Below are positions 36,700 through 54,369 of a stretch of DNA of 64,000 bases, piece by piece. The position numbers and the translations under genes were made by a program. The DNA is from Alphaproteobacteria bacterium. Lineage in GTDB: Bacteria; Pseudomonadota; Alphaproteobacteria; GCA-2746255. Location of the stretch: contig JAGWAR010000001.1 in assembly GCA_021296325.1 (NCBI GenBank), positions 1 to 64,000 of the forward strand, written 5' to 3'. Positions within the stretch are counted from its first letter, which is position 1. Every line of letters begins with the position of its first letter. The notes beneath the pieces were generated by a model. The model ran no database searches. It saw nothing but the letters and a program-made list of their open reading frames with translations, and was not told the DNA's origin.

Positions 36700-37932
36700 A
36701 TGGCAGGCCGACCCGAAAAAATCGTCTTCGAGGGCGCCCACGGATTGAAGCTGGCCGCCCGGCTTGACCGGCCGCAAGGCCCGGTCAAGGCCTATGCGCT
36801 GTTTGCCCACTGCTTCACCTGCACGAAAGATATCTTTGCCGCCTCCCGCATCGCCGGCGCCCTGGCCGAAAACGGGATCGCCGTGCTGCGTTTCGATTTC
36901 ACCGGATTGGGCAGCAGCGAAGGCGAGTTCGAGAACACGAATTTCACCTCCAACGTCAAGGATTTGGTCGCCGCCGCGGACTATTTGCGGGAAACCGTCG
37001 AGGCGCCGCGGATTCTGATCGGCCACAGCCTGGGCGGGGCGGCGGTGCTGGTCGCGGCAGGGCGCATCCAAGAAGCCGTGGCCGTCGCCACCATCGGCGC
37101 CCCTTCCAGCCCCGAACATGTGAGCCACTTGTTCGAGGGCGGGCTGGACGCCATCGCCGAGAAAGGCGAGGCCGAAGTCCATATCGCCGGGCGGCCGTTT
37201 CGTATCCAGAAACATTTTCTCGACGACATCGCTTCCCAGAATCTCGAACCGGCGATTGGGTCGTTGAAAAAGGCCTTGCTGGTTTTCCATTCGCCGGTTG
37301 ACCAGACCGTCGGCATCGAGAACGCGCAAGCGATCTTCGTCGCGGCGAAACATCCGAAGAGCTTCATCTCGCTGGACGATGCGGACCATTTGTTAAGCCG
37401 AAAGAAGGACGCGATCTACGTCGCCGAAACCCTTTCCGCCTGGGCGATGCGCTATCTCGACGACCGGGCGGCGGAGAAACAAGCGTCCGGGACGAAGGCG
37501 CCGGCGGGCACCGTGCTGGTCACGGAGGCGGAAACGGGCGGTTTTGCGAATGTTGTTCAGGCCGGCCGACACCAATTGGCCGCCGACGAACCGGCCGATG
37601 TCGGCGGCACGGACACGGGGCCTTCGCCTTATGAATTCCTGCTGGCCGGCCTTGGCGCCTGCACGTCGATGACGCTTCGCATGTATGCCGACCGCAAGAA
37701 ATGGCCGCTGGAGAAGGTAACGGTCCGGCTGCGGCATCAGAAGGTGTATGCGAAAGACCGTCAGAATTGCGAAACGAAGGAAGGCAAGATCGACGAGATC
37801 GAACGCGACATCGTCATCGAAGGCCCGCTTGACGCGGAACAGCGGAAACGGTTGCTGGAAATCGCCGACAAATGCCCGGTCCACCGTACGCTCGATTCGG
37901 AGATCCGCATCGTCTCGCGCCTGGCCAAGTAG
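36700..37932 (+). CDS. Fusion of alpha/beta hydrolase and OsmC-family protein
   Basis: A 410-residue bifunctional protein. Residues 1-255 are an alpha/beta hydrolase: oxyanion loop HCFTCTKDIF, nucleophile GHSLGGAAVLVA, acid near SPVDQTVGIENA, histidine DDADHLLS. Residues 270-410 are an OsmC/Ohr-like domain with the redox cysteines in GLGACTSMTLRMY and ADKCPVHRTLDSE, which reduce organic peroxides. This fusion is a known recurring architecture in proteobacteria. GGGAGGTTGGGAG precedes the ATG. It stands alone, 50 bp after the TPR-methyltransferase. Confidence 0.94.
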   Translation: MAGRPEKIVFEGAHGLKLAARLDRPQGPVKAYALFAHCFTCTKDIFAASRIAGALAENGIAVLRFDFTGLGSSEGEFENTNFTSNVKDLVAAADYLRETVEAPRILIGHSLGGAAVLVAAGRIQEAVAVATIGAPSSPEHVSHLFEGGLDAIAEKGEAEVHIAGRPFRIQKHFLDDIASQNLEPAIGSLKKALLVFHSPVDQTVGIENAQAIFVAAKHPKSFISLDDADHLLSRKKDAIYVAETLSAWAMRYLDDRAAEKQASGTKAPAGTVLVTEAETGGFANVVQAGRHQLAADEPADVGGTDTGPSPYEFLLAGLGACTSMTLRMYADRKKWPLEKVTVRLRHQKVYAKDRQNCETKEGKIDEIERDIVIEGPLDAEQRKRLLEIADKCPVHRTLDSEIRIVSRLAK

Positions 37933-37938
37933 CCTGCG

Positions 37939-38772
37939 TCAGGCGATTTCGCGCAGAAGCCGGATGGCGGATTCGCAATCCACGTAGCGAAGCCGGTAGC
38001 ACGCGCCGGTCTTCGCAAGCTGCAAAAGACGGCTGAGTTTCGTTTCCGCATCGAGGCTGTGGGTGAAATTGCGTCCCAGCAGGTCCCGCAGCACCTCGCT
38101 CTTGCCGATGGCCTCAAGGGCGGGAGGGCCCGCCTCCACCCGGTCGAGCAGCAGGATAGCGGCGATCGGCGCCGCCTCGCCGAAGCGTGCAATCTCGCCC
38201 GGCCGCAAGGCAACGTATTGCCCACAGCCATTGCCGAGGATCTCGCGATCCCGAAGAAAAGCATGAAAGCCCTCCGTCACGTTTGCGGGCAAGGGCAGCC
38301 GAAGCCTGGGTGCCACGCCGAAGGAAAGGGCGTTTCCCTCGTGTTCGCGCACCGCCAGCACGTCGTCGGTGAAAACGGTCGCCCCCGCCGCCGCCGCGTG
38401 AACCGTCAGCGTGCTCTTGCCGGCCTTGCCGCTGGCCGGAACGACAAGCAGCCCGCCTTCCCAGCGCATGGCCGCCGCATGGATGCAAAGCAGGTCGGGA
38501 TTGGCGGCAATGAACGCCATGTAGAGTTCGGCGAAGAAGCTTGCGATAACCTCGTAATCGTCGGCGTACTCGCATGACTCGGCGGAATCGGCGTTGCCAG
38601 CGACGATCCGGTAGCCCGTCGGCGAGCGCGTGACAGCAAGGGCCGGACCGGTCGGGTCGCCGGTCCATGCCTCGTTCGGCCAGCTTGCGACCGGGGGCTT
38701 AAGAAAAGGAAGAAGATGCTCGCATCCCGAAAAGGAAACCGGGGACGGAACCCCCTCGAAACGCAGCAGCAT
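37939..38772 (-). CDS. HPr-kinase-like protein of the polysaccharide/peptide type
   Basis: A 277-residue protein whose second half resembles the HprK catalytic domain: P-loop VVPASGKAGKSTLTVHAAAA followed by FTDDVLAVRE, with DD as in true HprK. ILLLDRVEAGPP and a C-terminal segment (RLRYVDCESAIRLLREIA) match the group annotated as HprK-related or serine kinases that sit in exopolysaccharide, PEP-CTERM and lasso-peptide loci. It is not the PTS enzyme, which is encoded at 23576-24007. Its true substrate is unknown. It lies downstream of three tandem small genes on the same strand, separated from the nearest by 49 bp. No strong ribosome binding site is seen. Confidence 0.82.
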   Translation of the reverse strand: MLLRFEGVPSPVSFSGCEHLLPFLKPPVASWPNEAWTGDPTGPALAVTRSPTGYRIVAGNADSAESCEYADDYEVIASFFAELYMAFIAANPDLLCIHAAAMRWEGGLLVVPASGKAGKSTLTVHAAAAGATVFTDDVLAVREHEGNALSFGVAPRLRLPLPANVTEGFHAFLRDREILGNGCGQYVALRPGEIARFGEAAPIAAILLLDRVEAGPPALEAIGKSEVLRDLLGRNFTHSLDAETKLSRLLQLAKTGACYRLRYVDCESAIRLLREIA

Positions 38773-38821
38773 GAATCAGAACAATCCACTTGAACGAGAA
38801 GGTGAAAAAACAGCCCCTATC

Positions 38822-39055
38822 TTATCTTTTCCCAGGAAGCGGCAGGGGCAGACAGGGCAGAAGAAGCGGCTTGCAGCGTGAGGGAAGAATTTTCGCCCGG
38901 GCACTGTTATCGAGGGGCAGGATCGTCGGCGCCGTGTATACCACCGCCACCCCAATTCCGAGCTTGGCCAGCGCCTTGCGGCGACTGATTTCCTTTTCTT
39001 CCGCTTTCTCTCTTTCGTTTATTCGTTTCGCTGGTGGTGACTTATCAAAGGTCAT
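38822..39055 (-). CDS. Small RR-leader two-cysteine protein, copy C (intact)
   Basis: A 77-residue unknown protein. A basic/acidic N-terminal part is followed by EISRRKALAKLGIGVAVVYT, which looks like a twin-arginine or related export leader with hydrophobic core, then APTILPLDNSARAKILPSRC and a short Pro/Leu tail with a second Cys (CKPLLLPC). Copies A and B share the frame RRK-A-LG-YTAP-LD-SA-AK-PS-C. The start ATG 39055 is chosen because the preceding TTTCGGGGCAATGGCG resembles the upstream sequence of the other copies. No known family recognised. Lies directly ahead of the HPr-kinase-like gene. Confidence 0.6.
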   Translation of the reverse strand: MTFDKSPPAKRINEREKAEEKEISRRKALAKLGIGVAVVYTAPTILPLDNSARAKILPSRCKPLLLPCLPLPLPGKR

Positions 39056-39221
39056 CGCCATTGCCCCGAAATTCAATGAATATATGCCTCAGTACATGCC
39101 CACATATATTCGGGCAAAATAGTATACAGAATTCACCGTTCCACAAGACTCTATGCGCGGCCCCCTGCCGCAATGCAGACAGGGATATGCCGCCGGAAGC
39201 GGTAGGGGATAAGGAGCCGGC

Positions 39222-39418
39222 TTAGGAGGGCTTGGAAACCTTCGAGGGCTTCGAGGGTTGTGAGGGTGCGCTTGGGCAATTGCCGCCGCCCTTCCCCTTG
39301 CCCTTGTTGCAGGGCGAGGGCTGCACCTTCGCCATGGCGCTGCCGTCGAGGTAGAACAGCCGAGCCCGAGCCGGGCGAGCGCCTTGCGGCGATTGATGGC
39401 TTCTTTTCTTTGCGTCAT
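39222..39418 (-). pseudogene. Small RR-leader gene, copy A (frame-shifted)
   Basis: The ATG at 39418 opens MTQRKEAINRRKALARLGLG, the same leader as copy C. About 22 nt that are present in copy B after CTCGGG are missing, so the start frame leaves the family frame. The family frame then reads LFYLDGSAMAKVQPSPCNKG, KGKGGGNCPSAPSQPSKPS and KVSKPS before a TAA at 39222-39224. The tail ends in Ser. Either a recent pseudogene, an assembly error, or a frame change that the cell tolerates; the start frame itself remains open down to 39089. Confidence 0.6.
39271..39360. repeat. 90-bp direct repeat, copy 1
   Basis: Identical to 39697-39786 except for one base (C/T in GGGCGAGG versus GGGTGAGG). Encodes the conserved core LDGSAMAKVQPSPC to GGGNCPS of small genes A and B. 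Repeat period 426 bp. Confidence 0.93.
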
Positions 39419-39570
39419 TGCGTTTTGCCCAACCCTGATAGATGGGGTTGCATCGCCCCCATCAAGTCCGCCCCATTTCCTTGCAATATATCCGATTTCC
39501 GGAAAAGCGAGAATGACGACAATGCAAGTCGGGAAGGCAGGCTTCCGCCGGAGGGTAAAAAGGCGATTAG

Positions 39571-39696
39571 GAGGGCCGGCTCGGCCCGGAAGGTCCGCTT
39601 GGCCCGGAAGGTCCGCTCGGCCCGCTTGGCCGGGAAGGCCCGCTCGGCCCGGAAGGCCCGCTTGGCCCGGAAGGTCGGCTTGGCCGGGAAGGCCGA
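39571..39696. repeat. 9-bp tandem repeat tract encoding Pro-Ser-Gly/Arg triplets
   Basis: About 14 imperfect units of the type GGCCCGGAA / GGTCCGCTT (plus strand), giving (PSG/PSR)n on the minus strand in the family frame of copy B. The repeat has few stop codons in any frame, which creates long shadow frames on both strands. Likely to vary in length by slippage. Confidence 0.88.
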
Positions 39697-39786
39697 CTTG
39701 GGCAATTGCCGCCGCCCTTCCCCTTGCCCTTGTTGCAGGGTGAGGGCTGCACCTTCGCCATGGCGCTGCCGTCGAGGTAGAACAGC
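39697..39786. repeat. 90-bp direct repeat, copy 2
   Basis: Partner of 39271-39360 with a single mismatch over 90 bp, in the same orientation. High identity against diverged flanks implies a recent duplication or gene conversion of the tail-coding part. Confidence 0.93.
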
Positions 39787-39961
39787 GCAGGCGCCGTATA
39801 GGCGACCGCCGCCCCGAGCCCTTTCTGCGACCGATTGCCTGTTTTTCCAACGGCATCGTCTTTTCCCCGATCTTGATCAATGGGATAGCTTATCCGCCCT
39901 TCCTTTATACCCGATTTCCGCCAGGAGGGCAGCCGTCATCGCTTTCTTGTGATTTTTCTTT

Positions 39962-41068
39962 TTATTTCAATGGCTTTTCAAGAGCGTAGATCAACTCGAT
40001 CACCGGCTTACCGAATTCGAGGCGCACCGTCTCCTCGCCGACCTCGCGCAAGCAAAACCGGCCCGTTGCCAGGGCCGGCACATAGCCCGGATGGTGGGCG
40101 TAGCGGCCGGAGGCCTGCAGGGTGAAGCCTGCGCCCGTTCCCTTCTCAAGGGTGAAGGCGAAAAACCCGCCCGGCCGCAAGGCCCGGAAGGCGGCGGCTA
40201 CGAGCGATTCGAGATCGCCAAAATAGACCAGCGAATCGCAGGCGATCAGAAGGTCGCAGGAAGCTTCCGGCGCCTCCTCAAGAAAGGTCACCGCATCGCC
40301 CCGATGAAGCGCGTCGTAAAGGCCGCGCGCCTCGGCCTGGGCGAGCATCTTTTCGGAAAGATCGACGCCGGCAAGCGTCTTCGCCAGTTCCCGAAACTTG
40401 AGCCCGGCCAACCCCGTTCCACAACCGATGTCGAGCACGTCAAGCGGGCCGGCTGTCCGGTCGAGGACGCGCCGGACGTATTCAAAGAGAATTTCCGGGC
40501 CGCGGTAGTTGAGCCCCTTGCAAAGGTGTTCGTCGAAACTTTCGGCGTAACCGTCGAAATAACCTTGCACGTAAACTTCCGGCGGACGGGTCGGCACTTC
40601 GCCTTCCCCAAGGGCGGCGATCACGAAAGCGGCCTCGACGCTTTCCGGATCCAGCTCGCGGTATCGGCGATAGCAACGAAGCGCCTCTTCCTTCCGGTTC
40701 AGATGACCGAACGTTTCGCCAAGCCGCCACTGAGCTTTCCGGTAATCGGGCCTGAGTTCAATCGCGCGCTCGAAGAAGGGAACGGCGCGTTCGTACTCGC
40801 TTTCATTGCATAACGCTTTTCCGATCGCGTAGGCGTTGCGGGCTTCGACCTTCGTTCGCTTGCGGCGAATATTGGCGGCTTCGTCCGTGCGGTTCTGTTC
40901 GACGAGCAGGGCTTCCAGGGATTCGAGGGCCGATAAATGGCGGGGCTTTTGTGCAAGCAGGGTGCGGTACGCGGCTTCGGCGTCGGCGAGGCGACCGGCG
41001 CTTCGGTGTTCTTCGGCAAGGTAGTAAAGCTGCGCTTCATCGGCGGCGTCCGCCGCCGCCGGTTCCAA
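39962..41068 (-). CDS. TPR-containing SAM-dependent methyltransferase
   Basis: A 368-residue protein. About four TPR-like units fill residues 10-150 (ERAVPFFERAIELRPDYRKA is the clearest). YVQGYFDGYAESFDEHLCKG, then motif I LDVLDIGCGTGLAGLKFREL and LRPGGFFAFTLEKG, mark a class I methyltransferase. The combination matches predicted TPR methyltransferases of the COG4976 type. The substrate is unknown; in this locus a sugar or a lipid-linked glycan is possible. A TTG at 41068 is the apparent start, with a weak ribosome site. The upstream hldE frame, if read unshifted, would overlap this gene by about 370 bp, which signals the hldE frameshift. Confidence 0.85.
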   Translation of the reverse strand: MEPAAADAADEAQLYYLAEEHRSAGRLADAEAAYRTLLAQKPRHLSALESLEALLVEQNRTDEAANIRRKRTKVEARNAYAIGKALCNESEYERAVPFFERAIELRPDYRKAQWRLGETFGHLNRKEEALRCYRRYRELDPESVEAAFVIAALGEGEVPTRPPEVYVQGYFDGYAESFDEHLCKGLNYRGPEILFEYVRRVLDRTAGPLDVLDIGCGTGLAGLKFRELAKTLAGVDLSEKMLAQAEARGLYDALHRGDAVTFLEEAPEASCDLLIACDSLVYFGDLESLVAAAFRALRPGGFFAFTLEKGTGAGFTLQASGRYAHHPGYVPALATGRFCLREVGEETVRLEFGKPVIELIYALEKPLK

Positions 41069-41110
41069 GGCTCGACTCGACGCCTTCGGCGTGATCGCCT
41101 TCCCCTTGCT

Positions 41111-42582
41111 CTACTTTGCGCTGCGGGTGTGTGGCCGTCCACGAAGTCGGCCAACAGGATTTTTCCGCCATAGCTCATCACGAAATCGGCGCCGACGACT
41201 TCGTCCATCTTGTAATCCGCTCCCTTGACCAGCACGTCCGGGCGGATCGCCTTCAAAAGACGGACCGGCGTGTCTTCCGAGAAGACGATGACAAGGTCAA
41301 CGTCGGCGATGGAGGCAAGCACCGTCGCCCGCGCCATCTCGGCCTGCACGGGACGCTCCGGCCCCTTCAGGCGGGTGACGGAGGCATCGCTGTTGAGGCC
41401 CACGATCAGCCGGTCGCAGGCCGATTTGGCTTGGCGCAGCAGCGACACATGGCCGGGGTGCAGAAGATCGAAACAGCCATTCGTGAAGCCGATGCGAAAG
41501 CCCTGACGCCGCCAGCGGGCAATCGCCTCGTTTGCCTGTTCCAGCGAGACGACGCGGTCCGCGCTGGCCAGCAGGTCGCGTTCGTGAAGGGCCGCGATCA
41601 GGTCCTCTGGATGGACGACGGCGGTGCCCACCTTGGCGACGACGATCCCCGCCGCCACGTTGGCAAGATAGGCCGCGTCCGAAAGGGAAGCGCCGGCCGC
41701 CAGCGCGGCGGCAAGCGTTGCGATGACCGTGTCACCCGCCCCGGAAACGTCGAAGACTTCCCGCGCCCTTGCCGGCAGATGGCGGGTGTCCCCCTCTTTC
41801 GTCACCAGAGTCATGCCGCGGGCGCTGCGCGTGATCAGCATGCCGTCCACGCCGATGCCATCGAGCAGCTTGCGGGCCGCCGCAACGACGTCCTCGTCGG
41901 TGGCGACCGAAAGCAGCGTCGCCTCGTGCAATTCGCGCAAATTGGGGCTCAAAAGCGTCGCCCCACGGTAACGGGCATAGTCGAAGCCCTTCGGGTCGAC
42001 GAGAACGGGCACGTCCGCCTTCCTGGCAAGGGCTAGGATATGCTCGGCTAGTTCACCCGCCAGCACGCCTTTTCCGTAATCGGAAAGCAGCAGGACGCTG
42101 GCCGAGGGAAGGGCCGCCTCGATGCCTTTCAGAAGTTTCTGCCGGGCGGCCTCGCCAGGCAGGACCGGCGTTTCCTGATCGGCCCGCAGCAATTGCTGGC
42201 TGCCCGCGATGAAACGGTTCTTGATCGTCGTCTGGCGGCCCGGTTCAACAAGGACGCCGTCATTGGCCGCGCCTTCCTTCCGGATCAGTTCCCGTATCTC
42301 GTTTCCCGCCGCGTCATTGCCGACGAGGGTAAAGAAACGAACCTTGGCCCCGTAGGCCAGGAGGTTACGAAGCACGTTCCCGGCGCCGCCGAGGACCGTC
42401 GTTTCCCGCTGGATATGGAGCACCGGCACCGGCGCTTCCGGCGAGACCCGCTCCACCTCGCCATAGACGAAACGGTCCAGCATAATGTCGCCGACGCAGA
42501 CGATTTCGGTGCCGCAAAAGGCTTCGACCCTGGATGCGAAATCGGAAGGATCGCCGGCCGGGAGATGCGTTTCCTGGGTCAT
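41111..42582 (-). CDS. hldE: Bifunctional heptose-7-phosphate kinase / heptose-1-phosphate adenylyltransferase, frameshifted near the C terminus
   Basis: HldE/RfaE makes ADP-heptose precursors. Residues 1-330 are a PfkB-type kinase (VLGGAGNVLRNLL, DVSGAGDTVIATLA). Residues 350-480 are the nucleotidyltransferase (TNGCFDLLHPGHVSLLRQAK, NSDASVTRLKGPERPV). The protein is normal up to ILLADFVDGH. There the family has GHSTT-R, but here the frame changes to HTPAAQS and runs on, antisense-free but meaningless, to 40699 inside the next gene. Two frames over, TRSAK and a TAG at 41111-41113 give the expected end. I annotate that end. Clustered with gmhA. Confidence 0.8.
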
Positions 42583-53286: not shown

Positions 53287-54369
53287 TCAGGACCGGGATG
53301 CGAGCCGCGTCCCGGGCGGATGGCCACCATAGGGCCGCACGAGCCCGCGCAAGCGAAGCCAGTTCCGATAAAGGCCGACGCGGCTTTCCGTGCCAAGCAG
53401 GAGTTCCCGCCGCAGGGTCTCCAGCGTGCCGGGGGTGACCGGGAAGAGGGCGGCGTAATCCGAAACGAGCCGCTCGAAGGCGCCAGACGCCAATCCGCGC
53501 GGCGGCATCAGCAGCCCCTCCGGCACCCCGTCGAGCCGGACGCCGAGACGCCGAAGCAGGTTGAGAAAGACCCGCGCGGGTTTCAGGAACCGGCCCTTGT
53601 CCGCCAGCCGCCCGACCGTGTCCCAGGCCAGCGCCTGCGTCCGTTCCAGCAGGCGAATCGCATCGACGGTCTTGCGCACGCTCATCGGCCCGAAAGCCAC
53701 CTTTGCCGCGTTCGTCAACGCAAGCAGGAAGCCGTGTTCCGGCGAAGGAATGCGCAGGCGCATGCCTTCGACGTCGACCCATCCCGAATCGGCAAAAACG
53801 GCTTCCGTCGTCAGCGAACGGTCGGCCGGATAGGCATCGGGGGCGATGTGCAGGTCGAGATTGGCGCTGCCGTCTTCGGAGACGAAGGGAAGAAAGCTCG
53901 TATCGGATATGAACCCCCACGGCGAACGCGGCGCGCCATCGAACCGGAACCCGCGGCCGGACAGAAACCGGATGAGCGGATCGAGCGCATCGGGGCGGAT
54001 CAGAAAATCGAGGTCACCGATGGTGCGCGCGTCCGGGTCGTCGTAAAGGCTGTGCGCGTTGGCGAAGCCTTTCAGGTAGACGACGTCGAAACCCGCCTCG
54101 CCGATCGCCTTTACCCAGCGCAGCTGGGCATGACGGAGAAAACGGTTGTAGAGGAGGTTTTTTTCGGCCGCCGCCGGGTCTACGAGTTCGCGTTTCAGCC
54201 GCGTGGCCGCCGGGCGCAACACTTCCTGCGCGAAGGCCGGCGATAACAGATCGACGAAGCGCTGCACCATCGCGGACGGCGGGGCAACGGACGCGTCCGC
54301 CGCCTCACGCGTGACCAGCGACCAGAACCCTTGCGTCGTACCCGTTTCGTCCCTTTGCCGCGTTTTCAA
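53287..54369 (-). CDS. NTP_transf_5-type uncharacterised nucleotidyltransferase
   Basis: A 360-residue protein of the family annotated as uncharacterised nucleotidyltransferases (PF14907). KGFANAHSLYDDPDARTIGD then LDFLIRP, the GxDxD-like core, and LDLHIAPDAYPADR fit this family. Members occur with HPr-kinase-like proteins in polysaccharide and peptide loci, as here (37939-38772). Function is unproven. It stands between the flippase (103 bp gap) and a phosphatase. Confidence 0.8.
   Translation of the reverse strand: MKTRQRDETGTTQGFWSLVTREAADASVAPPSAMVQRFVDLLSPAFAQEVLRPAATRLKRELVDPAAAEKNLLYNRFLRHAQLRWVKAIGEAGFDVVYLKGFANAHSLYDDPDARTIGDLDFLIRPDALDPLIRFLSGRGFRFDGAPRSPWGFISDTSFLPFVSEDGSANLDLHIAPDAYPADRSLTTEAVFADSGWVDVEGMRLRIPSPEHGFLLALTNAAKVAFGPMSVRKTVDAIRLLERTQALAWDTVGRLADKGRFLKPARVFLNLLRRLGVRLDGVPEGLLMPPRGLASGAFERLVSDYAALFPVTPGTLETLRRELLLGTESRVGLYRNWLRLRGLVRPYGGHPPGTRLASRS

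Follow-up and report, generated by a model that had tools for sequence, protein, structure and literature searches.

A gene for an HprK-like kinase and the small RR-leader genes beside it, found in a stretch of alphaproteobacterial DNA of 64,000 nucleotides (hereafter the window), probably belong to a RiPP-like phosphopeptide system, in which a leader carrying both a YxxP motif and a Tat-like signal would be read by a PqqD-type domain, a Ser of the peptide core would be phosphorylated and the product would be exported by Tat. The observations on which this reading is based are the components themselves, their co-occurrence and linkage, the fusions among them, the motifs of the leaders and the coincidence of peptide absence with decay of the kinase. 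The best reading of the host range is that the system occurs in Alphaproteobacteria and in some other Pseudomonadota.

Organization of the Locus

The genes considered here are listed in Table 1. The assembly of the genome to which the window belongs is incomplete (91.7% complete). The HprK-like gene reported in the initial annotation is present as claimed, and the three related small copies that it described in tandem upstream of the kinase are likewise found there, all on the same strand, in the order B, A, C, with copy C nearest to the kinase.

Table 1. Features of the window discussed in the text (positions are those of the window).
Feature	Coordinates	Strand	Remarks
HprK-like kinase	37939..38772	-	277 aa; P-loop G..GKST (118-120), H98, D136-D137, R158, R211
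Copy C, intact 77-aa precursor peptide	38822..39055	-	leader RRKALAKLGIGVAVVYTAPTILPLDNSARA, then core KILPSRC...C
Copy A, broken	39222..39418 (ATG at 39418)	-	DNA alignment; 28-nt leader deletion
Copy B, broken	39567..39856 (ATG at 39856)	-	DNA alignment; 16-nt deletion after RRK
TPR + class I methyltransferase	39962..41068	-	in further families, homologs also adjoin the peptide gene
HldE (heptose-7-P kinase / adenylyltransferase)	41069..42582	-	adjoins the peptide gene in further families
NTP_transf_5 nucleotidyltransferase	53287..54369	-	PF14907, 82.7 bits

The motifs said to be common to the copies (RRKA..LG, YTAP, LD.SA.AK and PS.C) are real in the sequence, as are the PS-rich tails of copies A and B and their terminal Ser residues. 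However, A and B do not stand as intact genes. In comparison with intact orthologs from three genomes of the same genus, copy A has a 28-nt deletion that takes out the YTAP segment and shifts the frame, and copy B lacks 16 nt between RRK and LGLG, a loss that also shifts the frame and leaves YTAP and the (PSG/PSR)n tail in another frame than RRK. Because both deletions shift the frame, the RR leader, YTAP and the tail never lie in one frame in either copy. The possibility that A and B are intact, or are read by frameshifting, was rejected, as the deletions are out-of-frame and A is without its YTAP segment; copy B may be read from an internal start that leaves out the RR. Since the core segment shared by A and B is nearly identical, they are apparently the products of a recent duplication. 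Copy C, whose tail KILPSRCKPLLLPCLPLPLPGKR is without PS repeats, is thus the sole intact copy, and as judged from the reading frames only this copy can work as written in the window genome. The same-genus genomes have one intact copy each, with the kinase directly after it, and peptide-carrying genomes commonly have two or three copies in tandem. Purifying selection is seen within the genus, both on the leader (dN/dS 0.10–0.51; 0.33–0.51 for copy C against its same-genus orthologs) and on the kinase (0.15–0.30).

Several neighboring genes also recur. HldE adjoins the peptide gene in seven families, even where the kinase is located elsewhere. In the window, the HldE frame (40699–42582) continues for about 120 codons after the point where it stops in relatives and extends into the TPR-methyltransferase gene, as a frameshift close to its 3' end would produce. 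The TPR-methyltransferase was considered as a core component and rejected, as it recurs in four families only. Genes for an ABC-2 type transporter are also found repeatedly in the vicinity of the kinase. An alpha/beta hydrolase-OsmC fusion (36700–37932) is located between the kinase and a TPR-PRMT-like gene; it is present in genome G001 and absent from this place in G002 and G003. At one locus (L040 of genome G019, 1602–2765) a gene for a TPR protein with a 2OG-Fe(II) oxygenase, possibly an extra tailoring enzyme, separates the RR peptide gene from that of the kinase, and in several families (L053–L055, L041 and L075–L078) the kinase gene immediately follows regB/regA (ActS/ActR), a redox two-component pair.

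Co-occurrence of the Kinase and the Peptide

The distribution of the two genes was examined in 385 genomes of the class. Members of the kinase subfamily, defined by a score of at least 125 bits, were found in 34 genomes, and strong matches (E ≤ 2.4e-8) to a leader profile built from 21 sequences, in which R, R, L, L, G, Y, and P are invariant, were also found in 34. Both genes were present in 32 genomes belonging to 16 families, the kinase only in two (G106 and G188), the peptide only in two (G116 and G375) and neither in 349, which gives a Fisher p of 5.7e-42 when the genomes are taken as independent and their shared ancestry is ignored. The co-occurrence check named in the initial annotation thus turned out positive in both directions, with 32 of the 34 peptide genomes having the kinase and 32 of the 34 kinase genomes the peptide; neither gene occurs mostly without the other, either of which would have spoken against the pairing. 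Kinase-like matches in G116 and G375 were left out of the count, being short matches to a P-loop, and a leader match in G191 (E = 8e-4), inside a 492-aa frame, was treated as due to chance.

The two genes are also physically associated. In 47 kinase neighborhoods that were fetched, no leader match above 30 bits was farther than about 1.6 kb from the kinase, and the most common position was 170–380 bp upstream on the same strand. Both genes are nevertheless kept in several families where they lie 37–120 kb apart. A second leader profile was built mostly from peptides in kinase neighborhoods; the genome-wide search and the finds outside of the class are independent of linkage. The latter came from a fresh sample of 299 genomes of the phylum, which yielded two new strong peptide matches, both outside the class. 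In both of these genomes a kinase::PqqD fusion is directly downstream, its start overlapping the stop of the peptide gene by 4 nt, and both peptides have cores of the SRPSYSRP type. A search of viral contigs found no relatives.

The two exceptional kinase genomes are informative. No credible peptide was found in G106 or G188 even by a relaxed search, and their kinases are exactly the two without catalytic residues, a coincidence expected by chance once in 561. This coincidence of kinase decay with peptide absence ties the catalytic ability of the kinase to the presence of the peptide. A functional pairing of the kinase and the peptide is supported by these observations.

Named examples of the system are found in Thalassorhabdomicrobium and on plasmids of Shinella and Paracoccus. 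On the plasmids (L128, L129, and L130) a gene for an S8 family serine peptidase, which might process the peptide, immediately precedes those of the RR peptide and a kinase::PqqD fusion, and a divergent sigma factor gene is also present at the locus.

Leader and Core of the Peptides

The leaders conform to the pattern RR..L..LGL...YxxPx[L/I/V]...AxA. All 47 collected peptides have the RR and YxxPx[LIVMAF], and in 45 of them the leader ends with A-x-A; the universality of YxxP is partly circular, because this motif belongs to the profile by which most of the peptides were found. Among 25 other RR-type signals from the same loci, which served as controls, none has YxxP. When the 47 loci were searched with a pattern that includes neither the Y nor the P (RR..L..LGL), 20 matches were obtained near kinases, 19 of them with YxxP, and none elsewhere.

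The cores that follow are hypervariable and poor in hydrophobic residues, and they are enriched in Ser (3.0-fold), Lys (3.0-fold), Cys (2.8-fold), and Pro (2.3-fold). Every core scored contains Ser or Thr; one has Thr but no Ser, and that of copy C has one Ser. About half of the cores begin with an [ST]-x-C motif, as does copy C (PSRC). None of the Pfam and NCBIfam families reaches its cut-off with the precursors.

The leaders have the layout of a Tat signal, with RR, a hydrophobic region and an A-x-A cleavage site. By the TIGR01409 Tat signal model, copy C scores 14.5 bits and its ortholog in G003 13.8 bits, against a cut-off of 16.7. TatC is present in the window's own genome. The match (G000:C14:445–1081) is split into two parts that lie in different frames close to the end of a contig, and it may be broken or reflect an assembly error.

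The Kinase Subfamily and its Partners

A profile of the subfamily matches the structures of HPr kinase/phosphatase (1ko7, E = 2.5e-6; 3tqf; 1jb1). The HprK-type P-loop GK[ST], the catalytic His and the Asp-Asp are kept in 34 of the 36 subfamily kinases, including that of the window, and H98, G118, K119, S120, D136, D137, R158, and R211 are conserved throughout the 36 aligned sequences with two exceptions, viz. L074 (from G188), which has H98Q, D136G, R158H, and R211Q, and L077 (from G106), where the P-loop and all other catalytic residues are lost. Because an AlphaFold2 model built from three sequences is poor (mean pLDDT 51), the assignment of an HprK-like fold is based on sequence. In comparison with HPr kinase/phosphatase, these kinases have a divergent N-terminal region, no PTS context was seen for them, and their partners are peptides instead of HPr.

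PqqD-like domains in RiPP pathways bind the leader of the precursor, and most kinases of the present subfamily have such a domain beside them or fused to them. A PqqD-like protein of about 89 aa adjoins the kinase in 21 genomes from 11 families, and in five loci (L038, L052, L056, L057, and L065) it is fused to the C-terminus of the kinase, as it also is in Thalassorhabdomicrobium, Shinella, Paracoccus and the two genomes outside the class. In the genus of the window, no PqqD is found beside the kinase. The statement in the initial annotation that there is no PqqD-like gene here holds within the window, but a PqqD of the kinase-associated type (109.7 bits with the profile of such proteins) is encoded at 67808–68221 of the contig, 3.8 kb past the window end. 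The window also contains an NTP_transf_5 gene, overlooked earlier, of the same kind as accompanies these kinases in nine other genomes of seven families. It is probably a fourth component, loosely linked to the kinase in the window. From the positions of the PqqD and nucleotidyltransferase (NTase) genes, PqqD, kinase, NTase and peptides all fall within about 30 kb. The NTP_transf_5 gene sits in an exopolysaccharide cluster together with APH-like, dTMP-kinase-like, and metallophosphatase genes.

Comparison with Known Systems

Among the closest known systems are the linear polyphosphorylated peptides (LPP) of Bacillota, whose loci encode an HprK-like kinase, a discrete RRE and an NTP transferase, together with one to three precursors that have a conserved N-terminal YxxP and highly variable C-termini, and are often found in polysaccharide loci (PMC13381572). 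The LPP kinase was shown to phosphorylate Ser of the precursor, and YxxP is the motif bound by the RRE (PMC13381572). The present system similarly has a kinase and an NTase in the window, PqqD a short distance beyond it, and precursors with a YxxP leader and a variable C-terminal part. However, of the LPP motif YxxPxVLxHQxIxFETxxS only YxxPx[hydrophobic] is common to both and HQxIxFET is absent; additionally, the leader here is Tat-like (RR, A-x-A), the kinase is often a fusion with PqqD and the hosts are Pseudomonadota. An SpI (SipW-like) peptidase and an MsbA-like exporter also belong to the LPP family, whereas the transporter that recurs beside the present kinases is of the ABC-2 type.

HPr-rel-A (TIGR04352) is similar in having an HprK-related kinase with PqqD and an NTase, and a PqqD-type partner is found here as well. 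The window kinase scores 40.6 bits with this model and its relatives 27.5 and 41.6 bits, whereas the curated cut-off is 200. In canonical HPr-rel-A loci (L131–L160), the kinase has an RR-leader protein as a neighbor in 23 of the 30 according to a profile search and in three more by eye. These leaders (RRRxLLKGL..GVPxIxTLxSGAALA) are without YxxP and are carried on proteins of 150–240 aa, which are candidate substrates of that system. In the open-licence literature, no paper was found under the system name HPr-rel-A, nor was a description of its substrate. The TAT target of the formate dehydrogenase region (TIGR02811) also comprises short RR-leader proteins, but the Paracoccus member scores 25.7 bits with this model, below the cut-off of 48.45, and the gene context differs.

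Alternative Explanations

Three other explanations of the locus were weighed against the phosphopeptide reading. The peptide could be a regulator or an adaptor and not a substrate, in which case the kinase and PqqD would modify some other molecule, such as an exopolysaccharide or an LPS intermediate, and the exported peptide would act in the same envelope process. The frequent envelope-sugar contexts, viz. HldE beside the peptide gene and the exopolysaccharide cluster of the window, are in keeping with this, and the cores are too variable to have a single obvious acceptor site in common. However, a RiPP-type PqqD adjacent or fused to the kinase, together with a leader in which YxxP is invariant and a hypervariable core rich in Ser, is the layout of a precursor that serves as substrate, and related HprK-like enzymes do phosphorylate peptides (PMC13381572); we consider a role as regulator or adaptor unlikely. 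It is less likely still that the products of the small genes are ordinary small proteins exported by Tat, which accompany the kinase only through inheritance and shared regulation. Although the RR and A-x-A layout, and a family ancestry common to many of the genomes with both genes, agree with such an origin, the pairing extends over 16 families and another class and is kept when the genes separate, the peptide is missing where the kinase has decayed, and the control RR signals of these loci are without YxxP.

The paeninodin-type lasso clusters share with the present loci an HprK-like kinase, which there phosphorylates a Ser of the precursor, a PqqD-type RRE, an NTase and a Y/WxxP leader, and the YxxP motif is used by lasso leaders too (PMC13381572). 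That the locus is such a pathway with parts missing is nevertheless highly improbable, as no macrolactam synthetase (lasso cyclase) or B2 leader protease is found among the conserved kinase and peptide neighbors in 17 families, and the proteins encoded around the NTase gene in the window have domains of other kinds. This agrees with the earlier view that this is not an ordinary lasso cluster. Furthermore, the leader is Tat-like and the cores are long and of low complexity, mostly without a ring acceptor at a fixed position.

Proposed Pathway and its Significance

In the phosphopeptide pathway that we favor, the leader of the small-gene precursors would have two roles, in recognition by PqqD and as a Tat signal. 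A PqqD-type domain, encoded 29 kb away in this genome and adjacent or fused to the kinase elsewhere, would bind YxxPx[L/I/V] and pass the peptide to the HprK-like kinase, which would, in the cytoplasm, phosphorylate Ser residues of the variable core. An NTP_transf_5 enzyme may modify the peptide further in many genomes, that of the window among them. The phosphopeptide would then be exported by Tat, a step predicted from the leader motifs, and signal peptidase I would cut at A-x-A to release it; we infer from the gene contexts that the product probably acts at the cell envelope or on exopolysaccharide. More broadly, we lean, by a modest degree, toward a class of pathways in Pseudomonadota in which PqqD reads YxxP inside a Tat signal, an HprK-like kinase phosphorylates a hypervariable core and Tat exports the phosphopeptide, with canonical HPr-rel-A being of the same kind and using another RR leader.

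These systems are easily overlooked, because the precursors match no family above its cut-off and because of their annotations: on the named plasmids the precursors are annotated as hypothetical proteins and the kinase fusion as 'PqqD family protein'. The peptides provide a concrete candidate substrate for HprK-related kinases that are annotated by NCBI without a known target. The proposed pathway would extend phosphorylated RiPP-like peptides from Bacillota to Pseudomonadota, with a single leader that would be used by the recognition domain of a RiPP pathway as well as by the Tat translocon, and the results suggest a widespread, apparently undescribed route to phosphorylated, secreted peptides.
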